Assembly (NCBI GenBank): GCA_033064195.1
Contig: JARBJD010000386.1
Location: forward strand, 1-64,000
DNA length: 64,000 bases
From: Blattamonas nauphoetae
Taxonomy: Eukaryota; Preaxostyla; Oxymonadida
Direction: 5' to 3'
Below are positions 3,054 through 62,934 of this stretch, in pieces. Position 1 is the stretch's first letter. Every line of letters starts with the position of its first letter. Made by a program: the position numbers and the translations under genes. The notes beneath the pieces are model-generated. The model was not told the origin of the DNA. It did not search any database and was given only the letters and a program-made list of their open reading frames with translations.

Positions 3054-3084
3054 TTAATACAAATTAAAAAATTCAAAAATGAAA
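3054..3084 (-). promoter_or_regulatory. Polinton start motif before the 129-residue gene (copy A)
   Basis: Minus-strand T-rich run ending TTTGTATTAAATG at the start codon. Similarity to copy B (53248-53280) stops just upstream of this motif, so the promoter and gene look like one conserved block. Confidence 0.5.
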
Positions 3085-4960: not shown

Positions 4961-5960
4961 GATTGGTTCTCCAGTCTTCTTCTATACTACTCACCATTCA
5001 ACTGAAGATTATTTAGTCTTGTTCCATTTCATTTTGATGTGAATGTTTTGAAGTCCAAATAGAAAGGTTTCAATGAAATGAAGGAAGATCATCCCATTGA
5101 AGAAAAAAGTGGGACCTGTTACCTTTTATCAAACCGACTGATATATAGGGTGAATTTATCTTTCAATATTCGATTGTATCTGTCGTGTGATGTTGAAAAT
5201 GGCGGAAAAGTGCATGAAAATCGTTTTGGTGACGAATCACGAGCTGTAGGGACTCTGTCCTACAAACTCCTAATTAGGAGTTAAGAGGACGATCGGCCCA
5301 AGAGAGGACAGAGAAGGACAAAATCGGACAAGCACCTTATATTCAAACTGGAACTTTCTCTCAATTAGTTCATCCAACTTCTGCAGTAATCTCCAAACAG
5401 AACAAATCGGACATGTCCTGTCCTGTCCTATGATCTGATCAACACACCCATCGCATCATGTGACACTCCTCTCTTTTCTTTCAGGATCTCTTATCACGTT
5501 ATTTGACTTCAAATATCCATTTAATCCTTTCCTTGTCTGACTTTCTGTCATTTTCTTCTTTGTAGAAGTAAAATTCGTGGAGATCCGCTCGACTGAACAT
5601 TCACTCTCCTCTTCTCTGTCCATGACTACTAACTCCTTTGATAGATGCTAGTCTCGCAGTGATCGTTTGCACTTCCATTCTTTTTACCATTTTATCTGTG
5701 TTTTTCTGTTCATTAGTTTGGAATAGATGTCTTAATCAAACTCGAAATGGTTATTGATGCTTTTCCAAAATCAATCGTTCGATTCATCTTCTTTTATAAA
5801 TCTGTTGTGACTGGCCACATATTTCACTTTCTTCACTCGCCATTCGACAATAAGTTGCCGATCCTCATGATCCTCTAGTCCACCTCATGAAAATCGTCCA
5901 CCAATTGATGGCAATGTCACAATTCAACAACCATTCTTCTTCATCCTGCAATGTCCAGGG
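4961..5960. other. Intergenic DNA without a supported gene
   Basis: Short frames only. The one visible structure is the pair of palindromes at 5246-5282. The sequence from about 5300 to 5440 repeats GGACA-type words (for example AGAGGACAGAGAAGGACAAAATCGG), which may be a low-complexity tract. Nothing else is supported. Confidence 0.4.
5246..5282. repeat. Two adjacent palindromes
   Basis: Positions 5246-5263 (GTAGGGACTCTGTCCTAC) form an 8-bp stem with a 2-base loop and one imperfect position. Positions 5265-5282 (AACTCCTAATTAGGAGTT) form a perfect 18-bp palindrome. They are separated by one base. They could be a cruciform or a paired binding site. No gene start lies close by. Confidence 0.5.
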
Positions 5961-26276: not shown

Positions 26277-27786
26277 TTAGTCAGAATCTGAAATATCAAA
26301 GACTCCATCGAATCCTGTTGTTCTTGGATCATAATCATTCTCAAAGTCCTCAATCTCGGCTTGATGTTTTCGATAGAGTTGTTTTCTCCGTGGAATTCGT
26401 GATTCTTTTCTTGAAGAAGCCGAAAGAGCCCTCTCATGAAAATCGTCTGGAAGTCGGTAATTATGTCCTTTTTCGAGGTGAATATTGGTTAACCAGCACG
26501 CATTTTTGAAGTCTTGCGTGATATGTTTGACGCCAGCAGTGTATTTCCCTCCCATTCGAAGCCACAGCCATTTGAGTCTTCCGAAGAATCTCTCCACTTG
26601 AACTCTGTCAGATGCAATTCTCACATTGAGATCATTCTGTTCTTCTTCGTTTGTTCTTTCTTTTTTTCTTCTGTTCGGACGATTGAATCGAAGTGTAGGA
26701 AAATCTCCGAGATATCCCATGTCGCCTTGAATTCCCCATTTTGGGTCGTTGTCTTGTGGATAGAGCTCTTTCTCCTGGTCTGTCTTGTTCAGATATTGTT
26801 CGATCGGTTGGAGAGTCTTTTGGAGTAGAGCAACATCGTGGATTGAGCCAGCAACACAATCAGAAACGAAGAGCGCTTTGTAGGGTGGTTTGGCTTCAAC
26901 ACACACTTGAGCCTTCATCGCATAACAATAATGATGACCTTCCCAAAGTACTTTCTTATCTTCAAAATCCGTCAATGGTCTGGGGACAACAATTGTTGTT
27001 GCATCAATATAAAGTGCGGTGAAAGGAAAATTGGCTTGAAAATTTGGAGTTGGGCGAGGCGGTACAGAATATCGTTCCTGAAGGACAGTGAACAGGAGAG
27101 GGCGAATGTGTAGAATTGCTTTAGATGCGAGATTTGGACTGATTCCCAATGCCGATGCCAGCCGATTGATTTTAACTGTTGAGCTCAACCATTCAAGATA
27201 AACGACTAATTCATCTTTGAGAGTGAGTTTCCCCTTTGGTCCTGGATGATTGTATTCTGGACAATTCGATTGGATGAGAGCTGAGAGATGAAGAAGAGTG
27301 TCTTTCTCCAATCTGAGTTGTTTCCACAAGTTTGCATCGTCATACTTCGACCAAATGATTCCTCCACTTTCTGGAATTGGCACAATTGGTTTTGCTGACA
27401 GAAAGACTTGTCTTTGTTTGTTTTTGAGTTCTCCAAGAGACGCAATGGAAGTTGAAGATTCTCGCTTTTGAGGCCTGATTGTGGGCGAAGCTGACCGAAT
27501 ATCAACAGATGATCGTGACGATTGTGAAGATTGAGGTGTTGAAAAAAGTGATCTCGAATCTATCAACGAGTTTTGTGACGAGAAGGGAGAATTGATGGTG
27601 AAACTTGGGGACGGGAATCCAATGAAACTTCCAGCAGAGGGTCGTAATCTTCAAAAGAGAAAGAACAAAATATCATTATAAAATCTCACACTGGAATGGT
27701 GATTGTGGAGTTCCAGGTTTGAGAATGATCTGTGATTGTTGTGGTGACGGTGTCACATTTTCGTCCATCAAATCTTGACTATCCAT
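26277..27786 (-). CDS. PIF/Harbinger-type transposase (DDE_Tnp_4-like), two exons
   Basis: Exon 1 (27786-27692) and exon 2 (27648-26277), joined across a 43-nt intron (GTGTGAG...AAG), give 488 residues. The N-terminal 100 residues are Ser/Pro-rich. A helix-turn-helix-like stretch follows ('NRLASALGISPNLASKAIL', near residue 195). The nuclease core shows 'YIDATTIVV' near 247, 'VAGSIHDVAL' near 302, 'GDMGYLGDFP' near 340 and 'VQVERFFGRLK' near 395. These are the D, D and E blocks expected for this family, which cuts and pastes its element. The intact core, intron and ends suggest that the element was active recently. The start was chosen because the joined frame reaches back to this ATG inside the element. 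A second in-frame ATG lies six codons later. Confidence 0.85.
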
Positions 27787-46311: not shown

Positions 46312-47775
46312 ATCAGCGTCCATTGTCGTATCGAGTGGTCCTCTGTGACTGTCGTCCCAACAAACTTTGTTCTCATCATGTGTATGTTCCTTTTCTTCCT
46401 TATTTTCTTCCTTATTTATATTTTCAGCGAGAATGAGTTTGTGGCTTTCAGATCTCACAATTGGGCAAATATGATGTATGAATCCATGGAAATGGTGTTT
46501 CATGTCAGTTTCAGCATTTTATCCGAATTCTTCCATTTTAGAGGTTGTTGTGCCATTTTATATTCTTTCAGGGGATGACCGCCAAAGACAGGCCAGTTTT
46601 GTCACAAAGGACCTTGATCTCTGACAATAAACATGAATTGGGCAGATAAATGCCGAATATAGGACTGAGGCTGTATCGGTGTCTTGACTTGTGGTTATGT
46701 TGGAGTTTCGTGAGGGTCGAAACTACAGGGTGGCCCAAAAGTCTGAAAAAAGAAAGGGCCGATCAACGACTGATTTGACAGATTCGAAGCTTTATCATGA
46801 TTTCTCTTTTTCACAACGTAACTGGCATTCTCATTATATTATCTCCCCTCAACATCATTGGCAAGAAATCCCTGTTTGAGTGCCAACAAGTGAGTCTTTG
46901 TCGCGATCGGCCCCTTTTCTTTTCAGACTTTTGGGCCACCCTGTAAATCGTAGTAAACCCCAGAGATTGGCCCTTCATGTGTATTTATTCCTTTTCCCTG
47001 TAATTCTACTCTTTCCACATCACAATCATGTCTTTTTCTCCTTTCTCTCTTCCAATTCCTCTTCACACTGAGGCAAAAAGATTCAATCGCAATTGTTGAA
47101 ATGTTGAATCATAAAAATGAACAAATAATTTCTTCAGTAGCATTCCTCTCCTAAGAGGACGTCCAATCTTGCTCATTTGCATCCTGTTTCTCCATCTGAT
47201 CGGCGTTTCGAGCTGTTCTGTTTTGAATCCAATCAAGATCGGCATAAACAAGTTGCTTTGAAACAAAATAAGAAAGTTGAAGGCAAACCGGTATTTCCTT
47301 GAGGTGATCGACAGGGTTGACGAACAGTAGGTGAACAGACGGGGGTATCCTGGCATCTTGCAAGAAACCTGAATGCAAATATATTTCATGGAGTCGAATC
47401 TGCACACGTCCTAGGGTCGGCATTCAACTCTCGTATTCATGTTTGGAGTCACAGATCAAGGTCCTTTGTGACAAAACTGGTACGTTTTTGGAATTCATCC
47501 GCTCAAAGGGCACGAAATGGCAAATCAATAGCCAAAATGGAAGAAAAAGGTTAAAACACTTAAACTAACATGTCATACCATTTCCATGGTTCAACAACTC
47601 ATCTTTGTCCAATTGTGTGAGCAGGAAATCACAAGCTCATTCTCGCTGAAAAAATAAATAAGGAAGAAAATAAGGAAGAAAATAAGGAAGAAAAGAAACA
47701 TACGCATGATGGAAACAAAGTTTGTTGGGACGACAGTCACAGAGGACCACTCGATACGACAATGGACGCTGATCA
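46312..47775. mobile_element. Inverted-repeat element A, about 330-bp arms
   Basis: 46312-46640 and 47440-47775 are inverted copies sharing GATCAGCGTCCATTGTCG, TTTTCTTCCTTATTTTCTTC and ACAAAGGACCTTGATCT with perhaps a fifth of bases changed. The inside holds the mariner MITE at 46726 and a short unrecognised frame near 47151-47423. The outer edge runs into the arms of the next inverted repeat, so the two may be related members of one family. Confidence 0.6.
46726..46943. mobile_element. 218-bp mariner-type MITE
   Basis: The left end CAGGGTGGCCCAAAAGTCTG and the right end, its inverted copy (CAGACTTTTGGGCCACCCTG), are followed inward by similar GGGCCGATC blocks, giving arms of about 45 bp. 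TA flanks both sides. The terminal sequence is of the kind found in mariner elements. There is no gene. Confidence 0.85.
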
Positions 47776-48358
47776 GGGCAGATCCAACCACTGTCCTGAC
47801 CATATTTCGTGTTTTTTCGATCGATTCTCCAAAATCTAATCATCGTCTTGTTCTTTCTAAGCAAGCTCCTAAATCGTTCACAGAGATCATAAACGGCCTC
47901 TCATTGACTTTCAAGGTTTGATGATCTCCATTCATTCCACCTTTCGTTTTCACTTTTTTGCCTGATTTCAATCTCCGTTTCTTCGCATCGTTCACCCTTG
48001 CCATTATGATTTTCTTCAATCACTGTCCATTTTTCCCTCAATTTTCAATTTTCATTGTTGAATTCTCATTTTTCATTAATTGCTCACAAGTCATCTTTGA
48101 TGCGGTTCTCTCTCCTCAATATGACTTCCCTTGCCATCCTCACGCTTTCCCTGATTATCAACATAACATCCCGTTCGATCAAACTCTTCTTTCCGTCCAT
48201 GTCCTCAGAGACATTTCAGCAATCTGAAGCACATCTCGATTGTTCTCATCCATTTGTCATTGTCTCCTTAAATACTCTTGAGTGCTTTCTACCCGTTTTG
48301 TGAGGACGCTTGGTGACCTGTAGATGCCATTTTTGAATGTTAATCGAAGAAGAGCACA

Positions 48359-50010
48359 GTCAGTCCGGAATACGTGAATCCGGAATCAAACAGAAATCAA
48401 TGGGGAGATCACACTTCACTAATGTTCATCATTCGTATCTGTTATTCGAAAGAAAAAATATGACGTGGACAAAACAAAAAGCATTTTATCAACTTTTGTT
48501 GTTGGTGCCCGAAGCGAGGGCCGAAGAAATTGCTGGCGGGATTCAGGAGCGGATTGGCCAAACGCAACCTCGCGAGAGAATTCTCTGGCTGAAGCAGCAG
48601 CTTGGTGACGATATCTACAATCCATTGACCCAACGATTGGTCGCCTTGATCGTTGGATGTTCACAGAAAGCCGTGCATTCAGCAAGACATCCACGATCAC
48701 GTCCTAAAAACAAGAGAAAGAAGACCGCTCATTTCTCAATGGAAGAAGAGGAGGAACTAGTTACCTTAGTTTTGGAGGCTAGTGTGACAGATGACCCATA
48801 TACGCCAAGCCGCGTGCGTGATTGGGCCTCCAACAGAATTGACAGGCCAGTCCACCAGAGCTGGCATCAAGGCTTCCTCAAACGTCACTCTGATCGCCTG
48901 AAACAGATTCTAATCGAACCGAAGGAATTAAAAAGGACAATGATCACACCTAATGACATTCTCAACTTCAGAGAAAGAGTCACACCAATACTCCAGGGTC
49001 AACCCGCCAGTTTCATCTACAACATGGACGAAAGCGGATATCATTGCTATGAGGATGCCCCCAAGCAATTCATCATCTCGAAACAATGTGATGAAACGAA
49101 ACAAGCATACGGCATTGAACGTTCTGAAAAGCGGATCACTGTCGCGGGCTGTATTTGTTTGGATGGGACGAGTTTATTGCCGTATTTTGTAGTAAAAGGT
49201 GACATTGATGAACGAAAGCTGTCAAACGCTGGGGCGACACAAAGTACTCACTGTGAAGTGGTTCGACGGGAACAGTCGGCGTACATGACTACTGATTATT
49301 TCGTGGATTGGTTGCGACGGGTTCTGATTCACGACATAAAAACAAAACGAATAGACCTAAAGATGCCAGATCAGACTGCTTTTCTTCTGATGGACGGTAG
49401 TAAGATCCACTCGGCGGAACTTCCAATGCAAATCTTGACTGAGCATGATATCACTCCTATTTTCTTTGTTCCATACGCAACGCATCTGATGCAACCACTC
49501 GACCTCGTGGTTTTTGGGCCCTGGAAACGATATATCAAACAAATGAGAGGAACCAAACCCAGAAGGAGCCAGGAGGAAATTGTAGCGATTGCGACGTCTG
49601 CTTTTGACAAGGCCACTGTGCCATTGACAATATACTCCGCCTTCCGAGCTGGTGGATTTGGACACGTGTATTGTGACGATATGCAACGTTGTGAGATCCA
49701 ACCTGACCGTTTTGATCAAATGGCGGAGAAAGCACGAAAAGGCCCTGTTGGAGTCCTAAAAAACGATTCCGATGAAGAAGGCGAAATGATCTTACCTTTA
49801 CTCGACACAATGCTGATAGATCGGGATGAGTGAATGGACTGAAGGAACTGAACGAAGTAGGTTGATTAAATATAATTTAATCTCCATTTCAATCGAATTC
49901 ATTTGAAATAGTTAGGCGTTGACGAGTGATTAGTTGAATGTTCGTGTGGAGAGGTTTGATCAAACCCATTGATTTCTGTTTGATTCCGGATTCGCGTATT
50001 CCGGACTGAC
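48359..50010. mobile_element. Pogo-like DNA transposon
   Basis: Terminal inverted repeats of about 46 bases start GTCAGTCCGGAATACG at 48359 and end CGTATTCCGGACTGAC at 50010, with two or so mismatches (ACGTG versus ACGCG). It carries one open transposase gene. The flanks do not show the usual TA. AGCAC occurs just outside both ends, one base displaced on the left, and may be the target duplication. The gene and ends look whole. Confidence 0.8.
48460..49833 (+). CDS. Pogo/Tigger-like transposase with CENP-B-type HTH and DDE_1 domain
   Basis: 457 residues without introns. The N-terminal 80 residues are helical. A CENP-B/Tc5-like DNA-binding part follows (basic 'RSRPKNKRKKTAHFS' then 'VRDWASNRIDRPVHQSWHQG'). 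The nuclease domain shows 'FIYNMDESGYH' near residue 190, 'AFLLMDGSKIH' near 312 and 'THLMQPLDLVVFGPWKRY' near 345, the three acidic blocks of the DDE_1 family that cuts the element out and pastes it elsewhere. The frame is open further upstream across the left terminal repeat. I took this ATG because it is the first one well inside the element with good protein character. The acidic C-terminal tail 'DSDEEGEM' is normal for such proteins. Confidence 0.85.
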   Translation: MTWTKQKAFYQLLLLVPEARAEEIAGGIQERIGQTQPRERILWLKQQLGDDIYNPLTQRLVALIVGCSQKAVHSARHPRSRPKNKRKKTAHFSMEEEEELVTLVLEASVTDDPYTPSRVRDWASNRIDRPVHQSWHQGFLKRHSDRLKQILIEPKELKRTMITPNDILNFRERVTPILQGQPASFIYNMDESGYHCYEDAPKQFIISKQCDETKQAYGIERSEKRITVAGCICLDGTSLLPYFVVKGDIDERKLSNAGATQSTHCEVVRREQSAYMTTDYFVDWLRRVLIHDIKTKRIDLKMPDQTAFLLMDGSKIHSAELPMQILTEHDITPIFFVPYATHLMQPLDLVVFGPWKRYIKQMRGTKPRRSQEEIVAIATSAFDKATVPLTIYSAFRAGGFGHVYCDDMQRCEIQPDRFDQMAEKARKGPVGVLKNDSDEEGEMILPLLDTMLIDRDE

Positions 50011-50340
50011 AGCACTCATTGACAAACTTACTCTAAAAGAGAGAATTCAACAATGAAAATTGAGGGAAAAATGGACAGTGATTGAAGAAAATCATAATGG
50101 CAAGGGTGAACGATGCGAAGAAACGGAGATTGAAATCAGGCAAAAAAGTGAAAACGAAAGGTGGAATGAATGGAGATCATCAAACCTTGAAAGTCAATGA
50201 GAGGCCGTTTATGATCTCTGTGAACGATTTAGGAGCTTGTTTAGAAAGAACAAGACGATGATTAGATTTTGGAGAATCGATCGAAAAAACACGAAATATG
50301 GTCAGGACAGTGGTTGGATCTGCCTTGACGCTGATCACTC

Positions 50341-50523: not shown

Positions 50524-51597
50524 ATGTCAGACGCGAATCAGGGTAAGATAGATGCGGTACAGGCCTCTATGGAGACGATAAGACCGCACATAAACGATCT
50601 GTTCAACCTTCGACAGGAATTCACCAATGCGCTTTCGGCTCTTCACGACGGGGATCAGGAGGCACTTCAGCGCTATGGAACGTTTATTGTGCCTCCAGGG
50701 GCAGAATTGGCCGTAGGACCATTTTTTCATATTGCCCGGTTAATGTCCGCCGCTGTTGACAAGATTGTTGGGGCAGACTCTCAAGAATGGCTTCGACTCG
50801 CTCCGCATGAGAGCACTTGGCTCACAGCCCAGGGGCAACAAACAGCAGCGCCTTATATTCCGTCGTTTTCTCGATCGGTGTCACCAGGGCCTGAGTCGGG
50901 CCGACGAATCACCCCCGCGCCGTACCAAAACTTACGGCACCACCAACGAATCAGGTGGGCTGATCCTCCGGCATTTGAGGGGGGAACAACGGAAGAGCAC
51001 GCAAGGGGCCATGAGGAGCGCAGAGATAGAGATGGTTCTGACACAGAGGATTATGAAGAATATGCAAATCAGGGACTGAATGAGATGGTCAGAAGACTTC
51101 CAACCTTTGCATGGAACCCAGAGGATGAAGATGAAATAAAGGAACGGATGGCGGTCATCGGGGAGTCATACTCGATGTATCCCGATGCAGTCAAGGAAAA
51201 CATGAGCCGGAGACCAAACCCGCTTAACAATGCGCTGAAGGGCATCGAAAGGGAGGCTTTCCACCTTGTAAAATTAGGTACTGGATCCTTATTACAACAC
51301 ACGGACAATTTGGAGAAGACACGCATCGTCGAATTGATGACCCTTAAAGCAGGCGAGATTGTGAAGCGTACGTACGATGCTCGCTTGGCTCACGTCATGA
51401 AATTAGATGTCGCACCAATGCAAGATAGTGCCCGGCAGGAATCGATGATGTTACAGCAGGAATACATTGACCAGTTAAAAATGAAAACTCGGAAGAGGTT
51501 GGATGAGAGGAAGGAGGACTGGCAACGACGACAACGCTTTTTTCGCGAGGGCCCCGCACAGGGGCGGTACAATCAATCCAGAGGACAACAGCAGTAG
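50524..51597 (+). CDS. Gag-like frame of a retroelement fragment
   Basis: An open frame of 357 residues. It begins with a helical part ('IRPHINDLFNLRQEFTNAL', 'GPFFHIARLMSAAVDKIVG'), continues with a charged linker ('GHEERRDRDGSDTEDYEE') and more helices, and ends in an Arg/Gln/Gly-rich tail ('RRQRFFREGPAQGRYNQS') that could bind nucleic acid. This order and length recall Gag-like first frames of DIRS-type or LTR retrotransposons. No reverse transcriptase, recombinase or terminal repeat follows, so only a piece of such an element would remain. Base composition is more G+C-rich than its surroundings, which fits insertion from elsewhere. It could also be a lone host gene. Confidence 0.4.
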   Translation: MSDANQGKIDAVQASMETIRPHINDLFNLRQEFTNALSALHDGDQEALQRYGTFIVPPGAELAVGPFFHIARLMSAAVDKIVGADSQEWLRLAPHESTWLTAQGQQTAAPYIPSFSRSVSPGPESGRRITPAPYQNLRHHQRIRWADPPAFEGGTTEEHARGHEERRDRDGSDTEDYEEYANQGLNEMVRRLPTFAWNPEDEDEIKERMAVIGESYSMYPDAVKENMSRRPNPLNNALKGIEREAFHLVKLGTGSLLQHTDNLEKTRIVELMTLKAGEIVKRTYDARLAHVMKLDVAPMQDSARQESMMLQQEYIDQLKMKTRKRLDERKEDWQRRQRFFREGPAQGRYNQSRGQQQ

Positions 51598-51624
51598 TAT
51601 AGAAAGCGAATTGGGAACCCGATT

Positions 51625-52050
51625 GAAATAATCTTTGAAAACCAAAGTTGAAAGTCAATTCCGATTGACCAATTTTGAATCTTGTATTAAAAGGAATTTA
51701 TGACATTTTGATGACATCAATATTTGGCCTAAATTCTTAAAATATGTCCAATATTTTGACCTCTTGTAAAACGTCCATTTTGAAGTAAATTTTTGCTTTA
51801 TTTCGAAAATTTTGTCACTTTTTTCGACTTTTTGATTTTTTCAATATGACTAATTTGGCGCTTATTTGGGAACCCTATTGAGAAAATTCTTGAAACAAAA
51901 ACTAAAATCTCGAGGACCATGTGACTCATCGATCAAATGAAACCAGATGATAATCGGTTGAGTATTCGTCGAGATCTGAGTTATTCTTCATTCAAAAAAG
52001 TTCGAAAAAAAAGTGAACCTCTTTTGAGAAAACACTCGTATCTCGACAAC
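51625..52050. repeat. Polinton terminal repeat, copy B
   Basis: Inverted, diverged match to 4560-4960. It begins just 28 bases after the stop of the Gag-like frame. Confidence 0.5.
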
Positions 52051-52159
52051 GAGCAGAGATCGGGACTCGAAACCACTCGCAATCGATAGAGGACTCGATT
52101 TTGCATATAGGCAAAAAAAGTGCAAAACCTTAGGGAGGGAGGAAGCTGGTGGTTTTTAT

Positions 52160-52326
52160 TGCCTGGTGTGTTGGCAAGTCCCTAAGGCCCAGGGTTGCGA
52201 TCCCTGTTTCTGACATTTATCTCATTTTTTGCATTCCGACGTCGGACAAATTATTGCTTCCTCCGGGGTTCGAACCTGGGACTCCTAGCCTAGTGGTACG
52301 TGCACTTACCACTCGACTACTCGTCC
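52160..52326. repeat. Two tRNA-like segments in opposite directions (SINE or tRNA pseudogenes)
   Basis: On the minus strand 52326-52254 shows an A-box-like TAGTCGAGTGG and a B-box GGTTCGAACCC at tRNA spacing. On the plus strand around 52161-52206 a T-arm-like hairpin CAGGGTTGCGATCCCTG follows GTGTTGGCAAGTCCC. Neither folds into a full acceptor stem, so they are not working tRNA genes. They may be SINE heads or decayed tRNAs inside the Polinton end. Their internal promoter boxes could still attract RNA polymerase III. Confidence 0.4.
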
Positions 52327-52709
52327 CTAATTTTCCGAGGATTTACCCTGGCTATATATCTGTGTAGAGGGGTTTTAATGACGATTTTTAAAAAGTTACG
52401 GGACACTTCAAAATCAAGTTTTGAAAACAGTAGTTGTTCGTCAAATCAACTTCAAATTTCACAGAATGGATGTCAAACTTGATATAAAAACGATTTTACA
52501 AAAATTTTTGAACAATATTGATTTTTGCCATATATCATTTTTTGGTGCATATGGTGCACTTGAAAAAATGAAGAAAAATCGATGTTCTCAGATCTTGATC
52601 AAACTCTCATCTAAGGTCATATCCGACACGCTCTTTCGATTGGTGCAAGAATTATTGAAATCGGATCAGTAGTTATCGAGTATTTTCACTTTTGAAAAAA
52701 CAAAGGAGA

Positions 52710-52743
52710 TTTTTTATTTTTCGAATTTTTTATTTTGTACTAA
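52710..52743 (+). promoter_or_regulatory. Polinton start motif before the 163-residue gene
   Basis: TTTTTTATTTTTCG followed by TTTTTTATTTTG and then TACTAAATG, with ATG as start codon. This is the first of a series of such motifs in copy B. The common form is a run near TTTTTATTTTT, a short gap, then TA-rich bases up to the ATG. Confidence 0.5.
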
Positions 52744-53235
52744 ATGGCACAGCTAGAACACATCGAAGAACTTGAGCAAATTTTAGAATACACTAATCCT
52801 AATCGAAAGGACAGTGATATCATGAATTTCCTGAGTCAGAATCATTTATTTCTCATGAAATTAGGATTGTGGAAACCAGAACTGATTGTCAATTTCAAAA
52901 CTTTAAAACAATTATTCCAAAAATATGTTGACATCGATAACCCAACTTGGATGAACTATGACACAAAGAAATGGAGGCGAAACCAACCTCAACTGATCTG
53001 TCAAATAGCGAACGTCAGAAAACTTCCCGATGCATCGGAGAATTTAAACGTCAGACTATCGAAAGAACAGATCAGTCAAATGGTGAAGAACATGATGAGA
53101 GCAACACCTCAAAGTTTCTTGAAGATGAAACTAGAATCGTTCGAATATTATCGACCAATCTGTGCCGAAATCTGGATGAAGTACGTGAAAAGAAAAGTAC
53201 CAAATTGGTTACTTCAAAATGATCAACAGAAATAA
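52744..53235 (+). CDS. 163-residue Polinton protein, unknown role
   Basis: An open frame of 163 residues directly behind the start motif. It is mostly helical and basic, with 'EELEQILEYTNPNRKDSDIM' near the start and a C-terminal 'WMKYVKRKVPNWLLQND'. I do not recognise the family. It is the first gene of copy B, is followed after about 45 bases by the 129-residue gene on the same strand, and has no counterpart in copy A at the matching place. It may be an optional cargo gene of this element family or a gene lost in copy A. Confidence 0.6.
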   Translation: MAQLEHIEELEQILEYTNPNRKDSDIMNFLSQNHLFLMKLGLWKPELIVNFKTLKQLFQKYVDIDNPTWMNYDTKKWRRNQPQLICQIANVRKLPDASENLNVRLSKEQISQMVKNMMRATPQSFLKMKLESFEYYRPICAEIWMKYVKRKVPNWLLQNDQQK

Positions 53236-53247: not shown

Positions 53248-53280
53248 TTTTTTATTTTTGAATTTTTTAATTTGTATTAA
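53248..53280 (+). promoter_or_regulatory. Polinton start motif before the 129-residue gene (copy B)
   Basis: TTTTTTATTTTTGAATTTTT, then AATTTGTATTAAATG at the start codon. It matches copy A closely. Confidence 0.55.
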
Positions 53281-53670
53281 ATGAATCCAACTGCGATGTA
53301 CAAGGAAAGACGTCGAGTATGTTCAGAACAAGCATTAATCGAATCAATGAGAGAAGAGAACTGTTCGCTAGTCTCTGAGTATGTCAGAAATAATGTGCCG
53401 GTGACGTATGTTCATGAGGGAGTTGAATGGAGAATAAAACCAAAGTTGTGGAATCAGGGAAACAGACCTCACTTAGCGAAACGTCGACACTACACTCAAT
53501 CATTCGTCGAAAATGAACTGAAGAAATACAATTGTGAGCTCGTAGGTGAGTACACTAAAGTTCTGGTTCCATTCACATATCGAGAGATTGGTGGAAGTGA
53601 AGTGTTCAGAATTAGACTTGATGCATGGCTGACTGCTAAGAAAAAGCCCCATCTGAGAAAACAGAAATAA
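53281..53670 (+). CDS. 129-residue Polinton protein, unknown role (copy B)
   Basis: Same protein as at 2664-3053, with two residue differences over 129. The internal duplication of a 'C-S/E-L-V-x-E-Y' module is present. It stands between the first gene and the polymerase gene, all in one direction, with spacers just long enough for the start motif. High conservation between copies, beside a very variable neighbouring polymerase N-terminus, shows that this block descended as a unit. The function is not known. A replication accessory protein is one possibility. Confidence 0.75.
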   Translation: MNPTAMYKERRRVCSEQALIESMREENCSLVSEYVRNNVPVTYVHEGVEWRIKPKLWNQGNRPHLAKRRHYTQSFVENELKKYNCELVGEYTKVLVPFTYREIGGSEVFRIRLDAWLTAKKKPHLRKQK

Positions 53671-53680
53671 ACGCTCAACT

Positions 53681-53713
53681 TTTTTTATTTTCTGATTTTT
53701 TAATTTGTAGTAA
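53681..53713 (+). promoter_or_regulatory. Polinton start motif before polymerase (copy B)
   Basis: TTTTTTATTTTCTG, then TTTTTTAATTTGTAG and TAAATG at the start codon. Confidence 0.55.
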
Positions 53714-56700
53714 ATGGCGGCGACACTGAAATTTGTAACTGACAGCATCACGAAAATAAGAGCACTATTTCCAAACACCACCTTTGAATTCAAGGATGAA
53801 CATGGTTATGATCGAACATACAAGCCAGAGAGTAGAAACTACCAACATCAGAGAGCATATCTCCTGTCAATGCTCAAGAATCCAGATCTCCATTTTGAGG
53901 GACAAACAAAGAATTTAACTAACTATCAGATCGATGATTTTATTCACAAACTTGAAGAGAACGATAACAACGCAAAGATGAATGAAGAAGACAGCAAAGC
54001 AAGAATGCAAATCATGAAAGAAAAGCCAAGAGTGAACAAAGATGAACTGAAAAAGCAAGTGTTCAAAATGACGTGGAAACTGAAATCAATTGAGGAGAAG
54101 CTGATGGATCATTGGATGAAGAATCTGTTGATCATTCAAAAGAAAAATGAACAAATGGAAAAAAGAGAGGTGCAGACATTTGATGGATTTGAAGAATGTA
54201 TATTACTTGCTGAACCACGCGACAAAGCAGCATTCAATTCTTGTCTCATGGATGCACGAAGGAAGTTCAAAAAGAATGAGGTCGAGAAGGTTGAAGATAA
54301 TAGAAAACCATATCAATTGTACTTCCACAATCATCTGAAGAATGTTGAGGAAATCACAACCTTCATCAAAGCAGTGTTCGACAAAGAGAAAGATCATCCA
54401 TTCAAGATTAGTATTGACTTTGGAAAGATCGTTGAAAGGAAAGATAAATATGAGACAACATATAAGGATTTCAGACCAGAATTAGAGAACACATCAAAGA
54501 GTTTCCCAACAGTGATCAGAAGTTCAGGAGACATCAACGAGTATTCTAAATATGCAATCAATCTGATCAAAGAATCTCAAGAGAGAACACTAATGGATAC
54601 AAAGACAATGTACATTGCATTCCACTCCATTCTAGTTGCAGTCTATCGATTCCCAGTTGCAGGAAAAGCGAACGCGATTCTCACTGAACACATCAAAACG
54701 AGAAACGTTCGATACATAGATTCTGAGTACAACATCTGCTTCTTTCAAGCACTATCATTCCTCACACTTCCTGAAGTTCAAGGCAAGAAGACATCCATTA
54801 AAATGAGGAATACTGAAGCTTACAAACTGTTTGCAAAATGGATGAATCTCACACATCTCAGATCACATCAATTGACACCACATTTACGAAAATATCCTGG
54901 CTTTGATATTGCATCTGACATTGAGAAAGCAATGATTCAATTCAACATCACGGTTCATATTTATGAAGACGATGAAGACAAGAAGAAATACTTCCTGAGT
55001 CAATCGTATGTCAACGAGAATGATGATGCAAGAGTTCTCCCACTTCTAATGATTCCACTTGCAGCAACTCTCGTTCATGTGATGTTCATTGTTGATCCTG
55101 AGAAAATCACTGGATACAAACTCTGTCCATATTGTCAATCAAGAGGATTCCAAGCCAAGGATTCTCACTTCAAGACATACGACGAGAAACATCTCAGAGA
55201 GTGCAAAGAACTGGATGGAAAACACGTGAAGAAAATCTCACTTGATAAAACACCACGACCATATGTTCCACATATCCTCAACAACAGAACGTATGAATTT
55301 CTGATGGCACACAAGAGACAAGATGAATTCAAACCAACACAGTACTACATCACATATGATTTTGAAACGATGGAAGATCTCATTCTTGACAATTTATTCT
55401 CTGATGACAACACTCAGTTGATCTCACATTTGAAACCTCTGTCAGTTGCATCAGCAATCAAAACAAAATCAGGAGTGAAGTCAATCTATTTTGATCTTCG
55501 AAACGGAAAAGACTTTGTGAAGCAATGGATCAGACAACTCTTCAAATACGCAGAAACAGTTCGAGAGAATAACTACTACGAAGACCCTGAAATCCCCTCA
55601 CAAAATCAAGTCAGTGTCATTGGATTCAACAGCTCCAGATTCGACATCAATCTCATCTTCAGAGATCTCGTTGACAAGGATTGGAAAGTGGTGAGCTTTC
55701 TTGGATCCACAACAAAGTACAAACAAGTATTGATCAGACACGAGAAAACCCAACAGGTTCTTCGCTTTATTGACATGATGTCATACACTGGACCAATGAC
55801 ATTGGATAATGCAGTCAAAGCATTTGGAGGAAATACAACACTTCAGAAATCATTCTTTGCTTACGAATCATTTGATTCATCTGACTACGATACAGTATTG
55901 AATAAACAAGAACCATTCTCCAAATATGAATTCTATTCCAGTCTGAACAACAGTGAAATGTCCGACAGTGATTACCAGTTATATCTTGATGATTGGAACA
56001 AGCAAGGATTCAAGAACAGATGGGAATATCTGAAATTCTACAACATAAGAGACGTCGAATGTATGATTGCACCACTCGACAATCTGATTGATCTGAGTTT
56101 CCAGTACAAAGTGGACATGTTGCACAATCTCTCACTGTCAGCAAATGCTTCTGCAATCAAATATGCGTGTGCCTACAAGGATTTTGATATCGATGATGAT
56201 TTCAATGGAGTGGATCAATCTGGTGACATAAAAATCACAAAACAATACTGGAAGTACAAGGTTGCATCGTACATTTATCAAGATCAGAAAGCACATCGTA
56301 GTACTGACAAAAATGTCACTGAAGCAGACTACGATTGGTTTGTTCAGCAGTGCAAGAGAGTGTGCTACATCTGCAAATGTCACTTCTCACAAGCAGTAAG
56401 ACCAACACTGGATAGAATCGACAATTCGAAAGGACATTCAAAAGAGAACGTGAAGATCTGCTGTGACTACTGCAACACCTACAAGTCAGACAAAGACGAG
56501 CATCTTACACGACTGAGAATTCAACTGAAGAAGTACTGCATCTGGAAATCACTACCAATGACTCTGACACATGAGCAAACCTATCACAAGTTGAGAGCAG
56601 CTGTGACTGGCGGATTATCGAATGTTCAACATCGACAGAATATCAAAGATGTGACACCAATCAATCACTTCAAGTTCGAAGACGGTAAGGTCTTGTCAAA

Positions 56701-58084
56701 AGATACAGAACACATCATGACTCACGTCTGTGGTGTTGACTTTAATTCACTTTATCCAAGTGCTTTCTCATCAATCAAGAACAAGAACAATCCATACACC
56801 AAACACAGAATGTACATGCCAGGACGATGCTTATTCACCGCAACAGGAGATAAAGAATGCCGTAAGATTATCGAAGACAAGAATCAGAAGACACTGTTCG
56901 TTGCAGAATTGAAAGGACACATCGATGAGAAATATATAAATGATTTCATTAACTTCCCACCAATCTTCAGGAACATCGTTGTCAATACAACAGAAGAGAA
57001 CATTGGAGAGAAGACCTATTCGTTGATGAAGAAACATGGATTGAAGACTGATGACAAACAAAGGAAGCTGACTCAACTCTTGAGCACACACGATCAGTAT
57101 ATGTTCTTTTCGACATACTATCTGTGGTTCCTCATCGACTTCTGCCACTTCATTGTGGACGACATTAAGAGTGTGATGGTGTTCTCGAGACACGCTGGAT
57201 TTGAACCATTTGTGACCTCATTCATGAACGATAGAATAGAAGCAATGAAGGTTGGAAACAAGGGAAAAGAACAATTCTGTAAGACCAACTTGAATGGAAG
57301 TTACGGATACGATGGAATGAACACTGAGAAGTATAACTCAATCACAATCTGCTATGAGAAGAGAACATACTTGAAACAAATGATGAAGGGATTTGTGGCA
57401 ACAAGAGAGATCAATGAGGACAACTACATCGTGATTGAAGACAGAGAGAAAGCATCATGCAAAACATGTCTGCAAGAAGCAGTATTCACACTCGACAATG
57501 CCAAGTTCTGGTATCTGAATTTCATCTACAACTTCATGTACAAATGCCTAGACATGAACAAGATTCACTTCTGTGAGGGAGACACTGACTCTGCATACTG
57601 GGCAATCTCAGGTGATCCAAATGCAGGAATACATCAACAATTTGAACATGTGATTGCTGACAAGGAATTCTATGATGCACACAAATATGAATGGTTTCCC
57701 AATCCTGAAAAAGGTGTCGATGATGAGAAGAAGCTGTTGGGATTAGCAATTGAGAAGGAAGGTGAGCAGATGATCTGTCTTGCACCAAAGTGTTACTCGC
57801 TCGATGAGAAATGCAAAATCAAAGGAGTGTCTCTGAAGAAAACAAATATCACAAGTGACGATTATGTGAAGTGTCTGAATGGAGAGAAAACTGTGACTAC
57901 AACACTGAACTTTCAGACGAAAAGAATCGTGAGCGAAGAGGACAGCAATGGATTTGAGATTGCCAAAATACAACAACAGAAACTCAGTCTCAGTGGAGTT
58001 CATCTGAAGGCAATCGTACTTGAAAATGAATCGTGTCCTCCATTCATTCATGGACTGAAAGCTACTGATTATATTATTGAATAA
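53714..58084 (+). CDS. Protein-primed DNA polymerase B with HNH segment (Polinton copy B)
   Basis: 1456 residues in one open frame. An N-terminal region of about 450 residues is followed by a zinc-finger-like 'CPYCQSRGFQAKDSHFK' near 471. The 3'-5' exonuclease has 'TYDFETMED' near 544, 'GFNSSRFDINLI' near 636 and 'YNIRDVECM' near 776. The polymerase palm has 'DFNSLYPSAF' near 1007, 'KTNLNGSYGYDG' near 1190 and 'GDTDSAYW' near 1288. Between the exonuclease and palm lies an HNH-like nuclease segment: 'CYICKCHF' near 882, then 'LDRIDNSKGHSKEN' and 'CCDYCNTYKSDK'. The family copies linear element DNA from a protein primer. The start is the ATG right behind the element's start motif. The N-terminal domain could include the terminal-protein part, but I cannot confirm that. 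Confidence 0.9.
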   Translation: MAATLKFVTDSITKIRALFPNTTFEFKDEHGYDRTYKPESRNYQHQRAYLLSMLKNPDLHFEGQTKNLTNYQIDDFIHKLEENDNNAKMNEEDSKARMQIMKEKPRVNKDELKKQVFKMTWKLKSIEEKLMDHWMKNLLIIQKKNEQMEKREVQTFDGFEECILLAEPRDKAAFNSCLMDARRKFKKNEVEKVEDNRKPYQLYFHNHLKNVEEITTFIKAVFDKEKDHPFKISIDFGKIVERKDKYETTYKDFRPELENTSKSFPTVIRSSGDINEYSKYAINLIKESQERTLMDTKTMYIAFHSILVAVYRFPVAGKANAILTEHIKTRNVRYIDSEYNICFFQALSFLTLPEVQGKKTSIKMRNTEAYKLFAKWMNLTHLRSHQLTPHLRKYPGFDIASDIEKAMIQFNITVHIYEDDEDKKKYFLSQSYVNENDDARVLPLLMIPLAATLVHVMFIVDPEKITGYKLCPYCQSRGFQAKDSHFKTYDEKHLRECKELDGKHVKKISLDKTPRPYVPHILNNRTYEFLMAHKRQDEFKPTQYYITYDFETMEDLILDNLFSDDNTQLISHLKPLSVASAIKTKSGVKSIYFDLRNGKDFVKQWIRQLFKYAETVRENNYYEDPEIPSQNQVSVIGFNSSRFDINLIFRDLVDKDWKVVSFLGSTTKYKQVLIRHEKTQQVLRFIDMMSYTGPMTLDNAVKAFGGNTTLQKSFFAYESFDSSDYDTVLNKQEPFSKYEFYSSLNNSEMSDSDYQLYLDDWNKQGFKNRWEYLKFYNIRDVECMIAPLDNLIDLSFQYKVDMLHNLSLSANASAIKYACAYKDFDIDDDFNGVDQSGDIKITKQYWKYKVASYIYQDQKAHRSTDKNVTEADYDWFVQQCKRVCYICKCHFSQAVRPTLDRIDNSKGHSKENVKICCDYCNTYKSDKDEHLTRLRIQLKKYCIWKSLPMTLTHEQTYHKLRAAVTGGLSNVQHRQNIKDVTPINHFKFEDGKVLSKDTEHIMTHVCGVDFNSLYPSAFSSIKNKNNPYTKHRMYMPGRCLFTATGDKECRKIIEDKNQKTLFVAELKGHIDEKYINDFINFPPIFRNIVVNTTEENIGEKTYSLMKKHGLKTDDKQRKLTQLLSTHDQYMFFSTYYLWFLIDFCHFIVDDIKSVMVFSRHAGFEPFVTSFMNDRIEAMKVGNKGKEQFCKTNLNGSYGYDGMNTEKYNSITICYEKRTYLKQMMKGFVATREINEDNYIVIEDREKASCKTCLQEAVFTLDNAKFWYLNFIYNFMYKCLDMNKIHFCEGDTDSAYWAISGDPNAGIHQQFEHVIADKEFYDAHKYEWFPNPEKGVDDEKKLLGLAIEKEGEQMICLAPKCYSLDEKCKIKGVSLKKTNITSDDYVKCLNGEKTVTTTLNFQTKRIVSEEDSNGFEIAKIQQQKLSLSGVHLKAIVLENESCPPFIHGLKATDYIIE

Positions 58085-58107: not shown

Positions 58108-60066
58108 ATGAACACACGACAGATTAATACTTTAGTGAAAAGGTTACTGAATTGCACACAACACTCTCAAATGAAAATATTCGATATCAAGTTCAATAGA
58201 ACCAACACTTTACCAGTATATGATGTCTATGATTCACATGGAGAGTATATTGCAAACGATGAGACATATTTCGAAGATTGGTTCAATGGAGGTCTCTCTC
58301 CTGAACTAACATTACATGATGGAACAAAAGTTGTCTCACAGTTTCTGACGGAATTCTTGGGAAAACGTGTTAGTGATTGGAGATGTGAAACTGCATACAA
58401 AAAGTATCAAGAATATCATCGAAAGTACAATCGGGAAGTGACTCCAATACCAATTCTCACACCAAGAGTTCGAAGCCCTGCAGAGGCAAGACAAATCCCA
58501 ACACCAGTGCAGAGACCAATAGTTATTGAATCACCTGAATCTCCAATAGTGCCGGGACTGAAGAGAAACTTGAAATCAATGGGGTTTGAATATGAATATC
58601 CAATGAAGGAGAGGAGATTTGAAGAGGAGGAGGGAGATGACATTATTCCTATTTCACAGATGCCGCATCCAATTGAGAGAAATCCCTTCTTCACACCAAC
58701 TGCGGTAAAACACCCAGTGAGAGAGAGCAGACAGTATGAACAAACGACACAACAAGTACTAAATAAGTTGGCACGTATGAAAGGATTGTTTGATCACCAA
58801 CAAAGAAATGATTCTGAAGATGAACAGATCAAAGCTGAGAACTCAATACTGAATAATCAAAAGCAAATGGAACACTTTATTACATCACACATTCTGGATG
58901 CAAATAAAATGAACAGAGACACATTTGTTCGAACCTCAATTAACAGACCTATTGCGAACGATGATATTGACTTCATTCTGACTCACACAAAACAAATCCC
59001 ATTCGGAGGAAGATCATTTCAGGATTGGTATGAGGAATTTGATCACAGATGGAGTGCTGCACATCCGAGGAAAACACAGAGAGAAAAAGGAAGTGACAGA
59101 ATGAGAATTGATCCACCAATGATTCCTAAAACAACAGAGAAAATCATGTATCCATTTCGATCAAAAATGCAATTCATGTCGAAAGCAATAACAGGTGATC
59201 CACAGAAGACATCAGACAGAAAGGTTCCTCAGAATTGTGATCGACCTTACTTTTCTCCCAAGTTCGGATCATGGGAAATTGATCTTGTCTTTATCCAATC
59301 ACCAACGTCGAAAACAGTTCTTCAGATCTACCTCTTCGCAATTAACATCAACACAAAATACCTGGTTGTCATTCCAGTTCTGGATAAATCATGGAGCAAA
59401 GTCAAGACTGCAATCAACGATTTGATTAATCATCGTGGAGTTAGCGTCAACAACATTCGAGGTGATGGAGAAGCTGCATGGACAAGTGGAGAAGCACAAA
59501 CGTATTTTGAGCAACAGAAGGTCAGTACATATTTCACAAGCTCACCATTCACAAATCACAACAGGATTGTCGATCGAGTGATCAGAACAATCAGAGACGG
59601 ATTCCAAGATAATGCAACACAAATGGCAAATCATTCACTGATGAATCAGATGGTTGAATACTACAACATGACTCCACATCGAGCGTACTGGAACAAGTTC
59701 ACTCCACAGCAAGCACAAAATAATAGAGAGATAGAGGCACTGTATATCTCCAGTTGTGAAGAACAATTAAAGAATATCCAAAGACAACAAACAACACAGA
59801 TGCTCTGGAAATACAAACCAGGAAACATTCTCCTGATTCACCTTGATTTGGACAAGACTGTTGCTAAGTTTCAGAAGAAGCGTAGACAGTTTCAATTCGT
59901 GGGGAAATTCATCGAATACAAACATGGTAATGTGGTTGCTACTCTCCTGAATGGTCTCACTTGTCTGTCAAAAGTTGTCTACGTTCCAATCCAACACACA
60001 AAGTTCCATGCAGACTCAATTGACGACTTAACTCCAGAGTTCATGGCTGAATTTAATTTGGCGTAA
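58108..60066 (+). CDS. Retroviral-type (RVE) integrase of Polinton copy B
   Basis: 652 residues in one frame. The first 250 residues are an unrecognised N-terminal region with Pro-rich and charged parts. The RNase-H-fold integrase core starts near 385 with 'WEIDLVFIQSPTSK' and 'YLVVIPVLDKSW', then 'NNIRGDGEAAWTSGEAQTYF' near 446, 'TSSPFTNHNRIVDRVIRTIR' near 478 and 'MVEYYNMTPHRAYWNKFTP' near 512. The C-terminal part has an SH3-like stretch 'KFQKKRRQFQFVGKFIEYK'. Integrases of this kind insert Polintons into host DNA. It follows the polymerase by 23 bases on the same strand, the standard gene neighbourhood of the family. Confidence 0.9.
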   Translation: MNTRQINTLVKRLLNCTQHSQMKIFDIKFNRTNTLPVYDVYDSHGEYIANDETYFEDWFNGGLSPELTLHDGTKVVSQFLTEFLGKRVSDWRCETAYKKYQEYHRKYNREVTPIPILTPRVRSPAEARQIPTPVQRPIVIESPESPIVPGLKRNLKSMGFEYEYPMKERRFEEEEGDDIIPISQMPHPIERNPFFTPTAVKHPVRESRQYEQTTQQVLNKLARMKGLFDHQQRNDSEDEQIKAENSILNNQKQMEHFITSHILDANKMNRDTFVRTSINRPIANDDIDFILTHTKQIPFGGRSFQDWYEEFDHRWSAAHPRKTQREKGSDRMRIDPPMIPKTTEKIMYPFRSKMQFMSKAITGDPQKTSDRKVPQNCDRPYFSPKFGSWEIDLVFIQSPTSKTVLQIYLFAININTKYLVVIPVLDKSWSKVKTAINDLINHRGVSVNNIRGDGEAAWTSGEAQTYFEQQKVSTYFTSSPFTNHNRIVDRVIRTIRDGFQDNATQMANHSLMNQMVEYYNMTPHRAYWNKFTPQQAQNNREIEALYISSCEEQLKNIQRQQTTQMLWKYKPGNILLIHLDLDKTVAKFQKKRRQFQFVGKFIEYKHGNVVATLLNGLTCLSKVVYVPIQHTKFHADSIDDLTPEFMAEFNLA

Positions 60067-60462: not shown

Positions 60463-61275
60463 CCCATCTTTGTTGATCTCATTCAGTGCAACTCCATCAG
60501 TATTGTATCGAAGAATGATTGCTTCACACTTTTGTTTTCGTTGATAGACATTCCAGAAGTGTCGAATATCAATTGGTGAGTTCAACTGAGGATAGACTCT
60601 GCTGATTCGTTCTTTGTTGAATCCTCCAAAGATCCACATTGAATCAATGTTTGACTTCATGTCTGCTGACAAACTGAAGAGCTCATGCATCGTCAGAAAG
60701 AATGTGAACTTTGGTTGTCGATTCTCAATAACAAGTCCATCATTGTCATTCTATTTTTGGATGTTCTTCGTTCACCAAGGATTCTGCGACAGTCATCAAG
60801 GAGGATAATCGTTTGGAGATTCTTGACTGAGAAGTCATCAATGTAAAGTGAGTCAAAGAGATCCTCTCTGCATTCATCAGTGATTTTATTCTGCCATTGA
60901 TTGTCAATGATCTCTTCATATGCAGCTTTCGATTCAGAGAGTTCCAACAGAAAAGGAAGTGCTTCATCATATTTGACTTTCACATAAGGAACGTTCAGTA
61001 TTGGTTTGAATTTATCGAATGTTGGATCAATGTTCTTATCAGTGACGAAGACAAAGAGATGGAATAGTTCATTCCGAACCTGAACATTCTGTAGCTTGGC
61101 AACCTCTCGAAGAGCATTAAATGTCTTCCCACTTCCTCTGTTTCCAACAAGTACATTCACACTATTGCGATTAAAATTCAGAGGTCTGGATGAATCTGAG
61201 ATTGCACTTCATGAGAAACATTCCGATTTGATGCTTCACTCAATTTAGCATTCACGTATGCTGTAAGAGACATAT
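60433..61275 (-). pseudogene. Packaging ATPase (FtsK/HerA, A32-like), broken (Polinton copy B)
   Basis: Minus-strand coding of a P-loop ATPase of the kind that pumps DNA into capsids of Polintons and related viruses. The Walker A 'LVGNRGSGKTFNALRE' and Walker B 'TIILLDDCRRILGE' are visible in order. The gene is the only clear one on the opposite strand in this part of the element, which agrees with the mixed strands seen in Polintons. It is broken, with about one break. The 5' limit is approximate and extends to a likely start near 61270. Confidence 0.75.
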
Positions 61276-61349: not shown

Positions 61350-62105
61350 ATGTCACAAAAGATAGTGTACGTTCAACCACAAAGAAAAGCACAAGCGAAG
61401 AAACCAAGAATGAGATACGGACCAGAGACTCAAGCAGCATTGAAACAAATCTTTGCTGACGATGATATTCAAACCAGACGCAATGATGCTCTGTGTAGTC
61501 TTCCATCAGCTCGAGAGTATATAACGAGAACTGGACGAAATTGGACTGCGAAAATAGAACAATATGGACAAGTTCCTGATGTGATGGTCTACGATAATGA
61601 TACTGGAGATCTGATTGCAGTCAATGGTGCTATGCTCACTCCATACAACAGCAGACCAGTCAAAGAGACATACTATGCAATGAATCCAACACCAGATATG
61701 CGAAGACTGAAACCATACACATCATTCAATCAAGAAAACGGAAGGAAAATAAAAGCGGTGCATAGGAATTTCCTCAAGAATGGAACATACGATTTACCAA
61801 CCAATTATCGAGACATCAGTTATGCAGAGATGAAGACACAAAGATCTCAACAACCATATGCAATAATGAAGAGAGCTGTTGGTGAACACATGACAAACAC
61901 ATTGGGAATAACTCGTGCAAATCGAAGCAATCCAGCTGATCCCAGCAAGAATGTGTTAGACAATATGGTGTTCAATTCAATTCAATCACAGATTGCATCA
62001 CTGATGTGGGATCAATGGCTTATTGATCATGTTCAGGACTACAATCCCAGTATGAAACAAAGAAAGCCTTCAAAGATCAGATTTATCCAGTGTTTCTCCA
62101 AATGA
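61350..62105 (+). CDS. 251-residue Polinton protein, probable virion or accessory protein
   Basis: An open frame beginning 'MSQKIVYVQPQRKAQAKKPR', so a basic N-terminus, then a mixed polar body ('REYITRTGRNWTAKIEQYGQ', 'DISYAEMKTQRSQQPYAIMK') with many Gln, Asn and Tyr. It has no signal peptide or membrane segment. I cannot assign a family. The place, after the packaging ATPase and ahead of small genes, is where Polintons keep capsid-related genes, so a structural role is a reasonable guess only. A 73-residue frame in another phase overlaps its end (62090-62311, 'DPTYLPEYCTRYSTHISTEV') and may be part of the same product or the next one. Confidence 0.5.
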   Translation: MSQKIVYVQPQRKAQAKKPRMRYGPETQAALKQIFADDDIQTRRNDALCSLPSAREYITRTGRNWTAKIEQYGQVPDVMVYDNDTGDLIAVNGAMLTPYNSRPVKETYYAMNPTPDMRRLKPYTSFNQENGRKIKAVHRNFLKNGTYDLPTNYRDISYAEMKTQRSQQPYAIMKRAVGEHMTNTLGITRANRSNPADPSKNVLDNMVFNSIQSQIASLMWDQWLIDHVQDYNPSMKQRKPSKIRFIQCFSK

Positions 62106-62330
62106 TCACTCAAGATCCAACGTATTTACCGGAATACTGTACTCGCTATTCAACTCACATATCAACAGAAGTTAATAAACTGAAAGCCAAAGCATTCAAA
62201 ACAGTCACAGATGATGATCTCGATCAGTACCAATCTGAGATGCCTGGATATTATCGATTTGCACAGTTGGACAGTTCTGGAATGGGAGCTATAGATCGAG
62301 CAGAAATGTGAATTTAAAAACATTAATATA

Positions 62331-62350
62331 TATTTTTTATTTTTATAGAA
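62331..62350 (+). promoter_or_regulatory. Polinton start motif near 62.3 kb
   Basis: ATATATTTTTTATTTTTATAG followed within a few bases by an ATG. Which frame it serves is not clear. Confidence 0.4.
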
Positions 62351-62427
62351 AGTGATGCAACCAATTCTAAGTTGTCAATTTACAAAACACACAAGTTCTT
62401 CTTCAGTACCAACATCAATCACCAACA

Positions 62428-62934
62428 ATGTCATCATCGATAACAAAGGATCCAATTCCGGAAGATCGAAACTCGATGATCGGAATGAACAATGCTAATG
62501 TTGAACTAGACAATGTTCCAGGAACGTATGATCCACCACTAGAGACGTATCCATCTGCTCCAATCCAAAGCCGTTCTATTCCTGAGAGAATACACTCTAA
62601 CATTTCAGCATTCAAAGATCAACTACTGTTAGTGTACAAGAATGCATTCGCATGTGAAAAGAAACTATTGAATAACCTGATTGAACCATCAAAGAAACTG
62701 ATCACGAACCAAAGTGATTTATGTGCTCTGATTGCGACTCTCACTGGGATCAATGATGTGGTGATCGAACTGGATGATTTGTCTGACAAGTGTCTATGTC
62801 TGAATAAACTACCAGTGTTTCGAACCATTTTCAAGATCCTCGTTGGTGGAAAAGATATGAGTATTGCCTACAATGAAGCATACAACACTATTCTCAATTA
62901 TGGCATTTCTCTGACGAAAGCAATACCCCGTTAG
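62428..62934 (+). CDS. 168-residue Polinton protein, unknown
   Basis: An open frame of 168 residues. The N-terminal 50 residues are disordered and Pro/Asn-rich ('ELDNVPGTYDPPLETYPSAP'). The remainder is helical ('FKDQLLLVYKNAFACEKKLL', 'NQSDLCALIATLTGINDVVI'). It has no motif I know. It is on the plus strand among small genes with the shared start motif, though this frame's own ATG lies about 75 bases behind the nearest motif. It may be a minor virion protein. That is a guess from position. Confidence 0.45.
   Translation: MSSSITKDPIPEDRNSMIGMNNANVELDNVPGTYDPPLETYPSAPIQSRSIPERIHSNISAFKDQLLLVYKNAFACEKKLLNNLIEPSKKLITNQSDLCALIATLTGINDVVIELDDLSDKCLCLNKLPVFRTIFKILVGGKDMSIAYNEAYNTILNYGISLTKAIPR

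Follow-up and report, generated by a model that had tools for sequence, protein, structure and literature searches.

The 64,000-nt stretch analysed here (hereafter the window; Blattamonas nauphoetae contig JARBJD010000386.1, positions 1 to 64,000) contains two Polinton copies: copy A, which lies on the minus strand at the left edge, and copy B, which runs from 51593 past the window end. Although sequence is freely exchanged within the family to which they belong, the first ~100 polymerase residues come in at least three discrete and deeply diverged forms, which we call heads A, B and C. Heads A and B are each associated with a type of left arm, with a C-terminal patch of a neighbouring 129-residue gene and with a patch in the OTU-like region of the polymerase. 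We propose that two or more Polinton lineages merged by recombination while keeping co-adapted replication-initiation modules, an explanation in which the function is inferred and which we hold to be evenly poised between right and wrong.

The dimorphic block in copies A and B

A protein-primed family B DNA polymerase and terminal inverted repeats are both present in the family, as expected of a Polinton/Maverick, a type of element that is 15-25 kb long. The features on which the argument turns are given below in window coordinates; Fst, the fixation index, was computed by head type.

51593 to 52743, plus strand: left terminus (AGTAGTATAGAA) and left arm of copy B
52744 to 53235, plus strand: 163-residue gene, found among 60 copies only with the left-arm type of copy B
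53281 to 53670, plus strand: 129-residue gene of copy B, two tandem repeats of ~55 residues
53618 to 53664, plus strand: C-terminal patch in the 129-residue gene, associated with head type (47 bp, Fst 0.73, 50 bp from the head)
53696 to 53716, plus strand: promoter-like motif ending in the polymerase start codon, the left border of the A/B block in the window
53714 to 54016, plus strand: head type B, the first ~101 polymerase codons and the dimorphic block, ~56% nucleotide identity to A with sharp borders
54029 to 58084, plus strand: rest of the polymerase, made up of a linker, a predicted terminal-protein domain, an OTU-like domain, exonuclease and palm
54770 to 54910, plus strand: second polymorphic patch, helices after the putative OTU catalytic Cys342 (Fst 0.52, ~1.1 kb from the head)
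1 to 2620, minus strand: polymerase of copy A, with a stop after residue 250 and cut off by the contig start
2333 to 2620, minus strand: head type A, the first 96 polymerase codons of copy A, from the A/B alignment
2664 to 3053, minus strand: 129-residue gene of copy A, 127 of 129 residues as in B
3072 to 4991, minus strand: left arm of copy A, apparently non-coding, with the terminus AGTAGTATAGAA at 4991

Immediately ahead of the polymerase, copy A (reverse strand, 3071-2622) and copy B (53263-53712) match at 28-30 of 30 positions in each 30-column window, a stretch that takes in the 129-residue gene and the spacer behind it. From the polymerase ATG onward identity drops at once to 9-22 of 30, with 159 of 285 ungapped columns matching over the ten windows of the low-identity block (~56%), and it returns to 26-30 of 30 from 54013 in B and 2336 in A, with ~92% identity past the block. 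The block thus delimited runs from 53714 to ~54016 and comprises ~101 codons in B, where the polymerase is an open frame of 1456 residues, and 96 codons in A. A preliminary description of this stretch had reported sharp borders on both sides, and identity plotted along the two copies does fall and recover as a block, with no gradual decay; the two-residue difference that it gave for the 129-residue genes is likewise borne out (127/129 identical). The strong divergence of the heads stands, and the figure of one agreeing position in three is replaced by 42 of 98 residues (43%), set against 42 common residues in the following 45 (93%). The polymerases are nearly alike from residue ~110 as far as residue ~350, beyond which a second, weaker patch at 54763-54942 has 131 of 180 identical positions. 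Upstream of the 129-residue gene, alignments of A against B gave no similarity until a common outer end of ~380 bp that is 79% identical.

The left border coincides with an AT-rich motif that ends in the start codon and recurs, near-identical, ahead of successive Polinton genes. Five matches lie in the window (2618-2638 and 3051-3071 on the minus strand; 52726-52746, 53263-53283 and 53696-53716 on the plus strand) against 0.04 expected, and the motif is probably the element's own promoter. One of its bases mostly differs by head type. The 129-residue protein is an internal duplication whose repeats share 20 of 56 residues (E 1e-8), and one search of a 5.8-billion-protein set found no homolog of it. 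The idea that it is a treble-clef DNA-binding protein was dropped, as searches gave nothing credible and its model is poor, with a predicted local distance difference test score (pLDDT) of 38.5.

Heads, arms and patches across the genome

The genome assembly is a draft of 88.3 Mb in 837 contigs. A 34-base word at the start of the common core, allowing up to three mismatches, marks 422 core sites; the head-A word has 193 sites and the head-B word 139, and the backward controls have none. Core sites without A or B led to a third head, C, with 64 sites; at least three N-terminal types occur genome-wide, against the single type that the preliminary description had named as a refutation. The sum for A, B and C is 396 against 422 for the core, compared as totals and not site by site. 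Among 100 core sites listed of the 422, 39 carry A, 47 carry B, none carries both and 14 carry neither in the matches listed. One of those 14 is a known A copy, and the six others that were read comprise one A, two B, one frame-shifted B, one mixed tail behind an unrelated stretch (L070) and one site with no readable head (L073). In two examples of head C, L076 and L077, a similar promoter-like stretch precedes the ATG and the core is 82-85% identical over the 33 residues compared; the head of L077 is 43-48% identical to heads A and B. At C153, three core sites lie 2783 bp apart (66807, 69590 and 72373), as if a portion of the polymerase were repeated in tandem.

We aligned 60 copies, 30 with head A and 30 with head B, each set being the best matches of one query and hence not a random sample; matches to the Pfam family (L001-L008) were excluded from all copy counts. 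Inside the block there are 99 fixed A/B columns, gaps counted, and A and B never mix, whereas ~1 kb of aligned flanks has no fixed column. Pairwise identity in the block is 0.938 for A-A, 0.952 for B-B and 0.565 for A-B, with no A-B pair above 0.603; the corresponding values for the terminal-protein core are 0.929, 0.947 and 0.930. Codon counts, from which frames with stops or shifts were dropped (5, 3 and 6 of 60), gave the same contrast. The proportion of synonymous differences (pS) in the core is 0.27 between types and 0.22-0.28 within them, while in the head it reaches 0.68 between types, near saturation. Within a type, the ratio of non-synonymous to synonymous proportions (pN/pS) in the head is 0.21-0.23 for A and B, and purifying selection acts on both. 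Because the heads are both diverged and constrained while core pS is equal between and within types, both heads are old and maintained, and the sequence around them has been exchanged between their carriers. This supports recombination between Polinton lineages or a variable cassette, as first suggested, with A and B heads on one recombining core. The word "swapped" fits the head and is incomplete for the element, since head type is also tied to the type of left arm, to how the 129-residue gene ends and to the OTU patch.

These ties appear as islands of differentiation. Fst is 0.06 for residues 1-110 of the 129-residue gene and 0.73 for its C-terminus, 0.43 for the promoter stretch, 0.87 for the head, 0.12 for the terminal-protein core, 0.52 for the OTU patch and 0.09 for the next stretch; none of 200 label shuffles attained any of these values. 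Ordinary variants outside the islands are nearly independent, with a mean squared correlation (r2) of 0.25 below 25 bp, 0.06 at 25-75 bp and 0.04-0.05 further apart. With all 60 copies, r2 is 0.81 between head type and arm A, 0.76 between head type and the OTU patch's main B cluster, and 0.59 between arm and OTU cluster. Removal of near-identical copies left 29 A and 18 B, 47 in all, for which the values were 0.75 for head and arm, 0.68 for head and OTU cluster and 0.45 for arm and OTU cluster, against a maximum of 0.36 in 4348 pairs of ordinary single-nucleotide polymorphisms (SNPs) 400-1200 bp apart. Because the head-arm and head-OTU values exceed those of all ordinary pairs, the separate segments travel together across stretches that mix. 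Single SNPs of the OTU stretch reach an r2 of 0.87 with head type (mean 0.43 of 43), and A/B identity in the OTU patch averages 0.72 and goes up to 0.99.

Arm A was found in 31 copies (29 with head A, two with head B) and arm B in 19, all with head B. Arm C, which includes the 163-residue gene, occurs in four copies, three with head B (L009, L010 and L012) and one with head A (L045); six more head-B copies fall outside the three clusters. The 163-residue gene has a weak, below-threshold similarity to D5_N. In the representatives of arms A and B that we inspected, no long conserved frame was seen. The distance from terminus to polymerase ATG is 2364-2370 bp in four of six A elements (2183 and 2971 in the others) and 3340-3642 bp in seven of eleven B elements; two more B elements have 2767 and 2821 bp, window copy B has 2121 bp, and one with an A-like arm has 2366 bp. 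The terminus motif occurs at 257 sites genome-wide (control, none), and among 100 sites listed at least six oppositely oriented pairs, matched by position only, lie 17.4-29.9 kb apart, which supports the termini as the element's inverted ends. Twelve of the 257 termini were read and few could be linked to a head: four head-A ends carry GAACCAATC, two head-B ends differ from it and one head-B end, at C123, is A-like, numbers too small to count. At C70:48469-58123, five Polinton termini in the same orientation, ~2.4 kb apart, look like a tandem array of ends.

All 30 A copies have DAWL... (mostly DAWLTAKKKPHL) at the C-terminus of the 129-residue protein, as do 3 of the 30 B copies; the other 27 B copies have DSWLKATIKPHQ or a similar sequence there. 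Because best-match sampling of the 60 copies might bias this result, we linked patch and head through separate genome-wide pattern matches (100 listed of 137, 157, 193 and 139). The 135 linked sites comprise 57 A-A, 71 B-B and four plus three discordant ones. Window copy B is one of the four, with an A-like patch and a B head, which is why the two 129-residue genes in the window appeared near-identical.

Explanations for the matched sets

Under the explanation that we propose, two or more Polinton lineages would have met in one host and merged by recombination. The head would be the N-terminal part of a replication-priming protein and would recognise either the ends of its own element or a parental terminal protein bound to them, possibly together with the 129-residue protein, so that the arm and the OTU patch, and perhaps the 129-residue protein as well, would have to match the head. 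Because mismatched combinations would replicate poorly, the replication-initiation module alone would stay in matched sets. That the head reads an end or a bound terminal protein is inferred by analogy with known systems. Polinton polymerases have been argued to carry a terminal-protein domain followed by an OTU domain, with D1 priming replication and the OTU domain freeing D1 (PMC11071308). The N-terminal domain of the phi29 terminal protein is needed for amplification and has been proposed to mediate contact between priming and parental terminal protein (PMC4357725). A stricter form of the proposal, in which heads are self-recognition types and each priming head replicates only elements with a matching end region, seems to us rather unlikely. 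If it is true, element "strains" with a common gene pool would privatise their replication machinery, much like incompatibility groups, and would be held apart by islands of co-adapted sequence.

Several observations weigh against functional matching. The first 12 bp and the inner ~100 bp of A and B termini are almost exactly common, so that recognition specific to one end would be confined largely to positions 13-60. Head and arm are mismatched in L019, L037 and L045 among the 60 copies, a further head-B copy (L013) has a 474-bp stretch resembling arm A, and patch and head disagree at 7 of the 135 linked sites. The element at C123:45111 combines head B with an A-type end and arm length and has a possible right end 25 kb off; such mismatched elements may have moved, and they are mild evidence that matching is not strict. 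Some structure remains in the stretches between islands: their Fst of 0.06-0.12 lies above all 200 shuffles, and in the 129-residue gene pS is 0.166 for pairs of unlike type and 0.12-0.13 within types. The linkage values come from best matches, with an OTU cluster picked after clustering. The head itself is poorly modelled (pLDDT 47-67), and neither a protein database search nor its profile against listed homologs found a homolog, which makes binding of DNA or terminal protein a guess.

A neutral relic is a realistic, if tentative, alternative. Here two or more old lineages would have met in one host, gene conversion would have homogenised the stretches that were still similar, and those too divergent to convert would stay linked as markers of ancestry, with no co-adaptation. 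The undifferentiated stretches are indeed those of high identity, the left arms form clusters without long similarity, and exchange dominated by conversion would shuffle SNPs and still keep distant islands together. For surface proteins of Plasmodium, two deep lineages have been argued to have arisen by conversion (PMC10919680). Yet the OTU patch is only moderately diverged and the C-terminal patch only 47 bp long, and both are linked, although the latter could form one block with the head 50 bp away. Ordinary conversion tracts should cross such short divergent stretches, which argues mildly against a relic. Frequency-dependent selection, with a host factor or rival element targeting the common head and several heads kept without any matching to ends, would suit three discrete heads of which none is rare and the purifying selection inside A and B. 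That the head should be linked to the OTU patch, or to an arm ~430 bp off that is apparently non-coding, does not follow from it, and we consider this explanation improbable. That the pattern is an artefact of assembly, or that the assembly mixes two organisms, is scarcely credible despite the draft state of the genome, as A-head and B-head copies share contigs (C319, C436, C57, C291 and C195), sequence outside the block is common to both types and each type has more than 100 sites.

Compared with the Polinton/Maverick polymerase as described (terminal protein, vOTU, exonuclease, palm; PMC11071308), this one is likewise large, with an N-terminal extension and terminal-protein-like and OTU-like regions, and the element has inverted termini and probable integrase and ATPase genes. 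It differs in the ~100-residue head ahead of the terminal-protein domain, which exists here as a set of discrete versions that can be exchanged; no such polymorphism is described in the abstract or in sections 6, 7 and 9 of PMC11071308. The phi29 terminal protein shares a separate N-terminal domain of the priming protein, a role in origin use and the proposed contact between terminal proteins (PMC4357725), but is a separate, elongated helical protein (PMC11071308). The dimorphic MSP and DBLMSP surface proteins of Plasmodium also confine deeply diverged lineages to one protein domain, but face the host and occupy one or two loci (PMC10919680), whereas here a replication gene of a several-hundred-copy transposon is linked to distant segments. 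We know of no allelic series for the phi29 terminal protein. Among the top-ranked titles and abstract openings of open-licence literature on Polinton recombination and terminal-protein variability, no report of discrete polymerase-head alleles was found. Hundreds of natural copies, in which nearly every part examined mixes apart from head, arm, OTU patch and the C-terminus of the possible partner protein, form a natural recombination map pointing to parts that may have to fit together and, if the match is functional, show how selfish elements in one nucleus stop relatives from using their polymerase.

Polymerase domains, relatives and neighbouring genes

The structure model predicts an alpha/beta domain at residues 171-312, mostly with confidence, at the position of the terminal protein ahead of the OTU region, and the A/B block ends, on its right side, where a linker modelled with low confidence begins. 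The earlier suggestion that the N-terminus holds the priming or partner-binding part is plausible and unproven; the head precedes the predicted terminal-protein domain and is not that domain. Foldseek matched OTU chains to the OTU-like domain with probabilities up to 0.96 at E values of 0.067 or more and none at 0.001 or below, and Cys342 and His455 are nearly invariant (at least 90%) in a 40-row alignment. PDB searches with a 900-residue model were uninformative on the head.

A search of polymerase residues 1-420 against a protein database returned none of 2820 candidates, and full-length relatives exist, so this search was insensitive; the head profile gave nothing credible against listed homologs longer than 1150 residues (best E 0.018). 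As a donor family for a head, a relative in the same genome at C62 (L069) was rejected for its different, longer N-terminus, and of seven stretches in viral contigs that fit a sequence pattern none was confirmed. Polymerase relatives named by organism are all from the oxymonad Streblomastix strix, except one labelled Methanobrevibacter.

Two further genes of the element were assigned from sub-threshold domain matches.

58108 to 60066, plus strand: probable integrase of copy B (rve 19.4 bits, E 0.0013, under the curated cut-off of 32.6)
60693 to 61160, minus strand: probable packaging-type ATPase, Walker-A-like GNRGSGKT near its start (AAA 18.5 bits, E 0.0028, under the cut-off of 21.2)

The genes at 61350-62934 received no Pfam identification, and no further capsid search was made. 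Two DNA transposons also lie in the window. Beside copy B, at 47773-50328, 280-bp inverted repeats (99%) flank a 498-residue DDE transposase frame and mark a separate transposon, and a frame at 26277-27566 with a DDE_Tnp_4 domain (E 2.9e-14) belongs to another.
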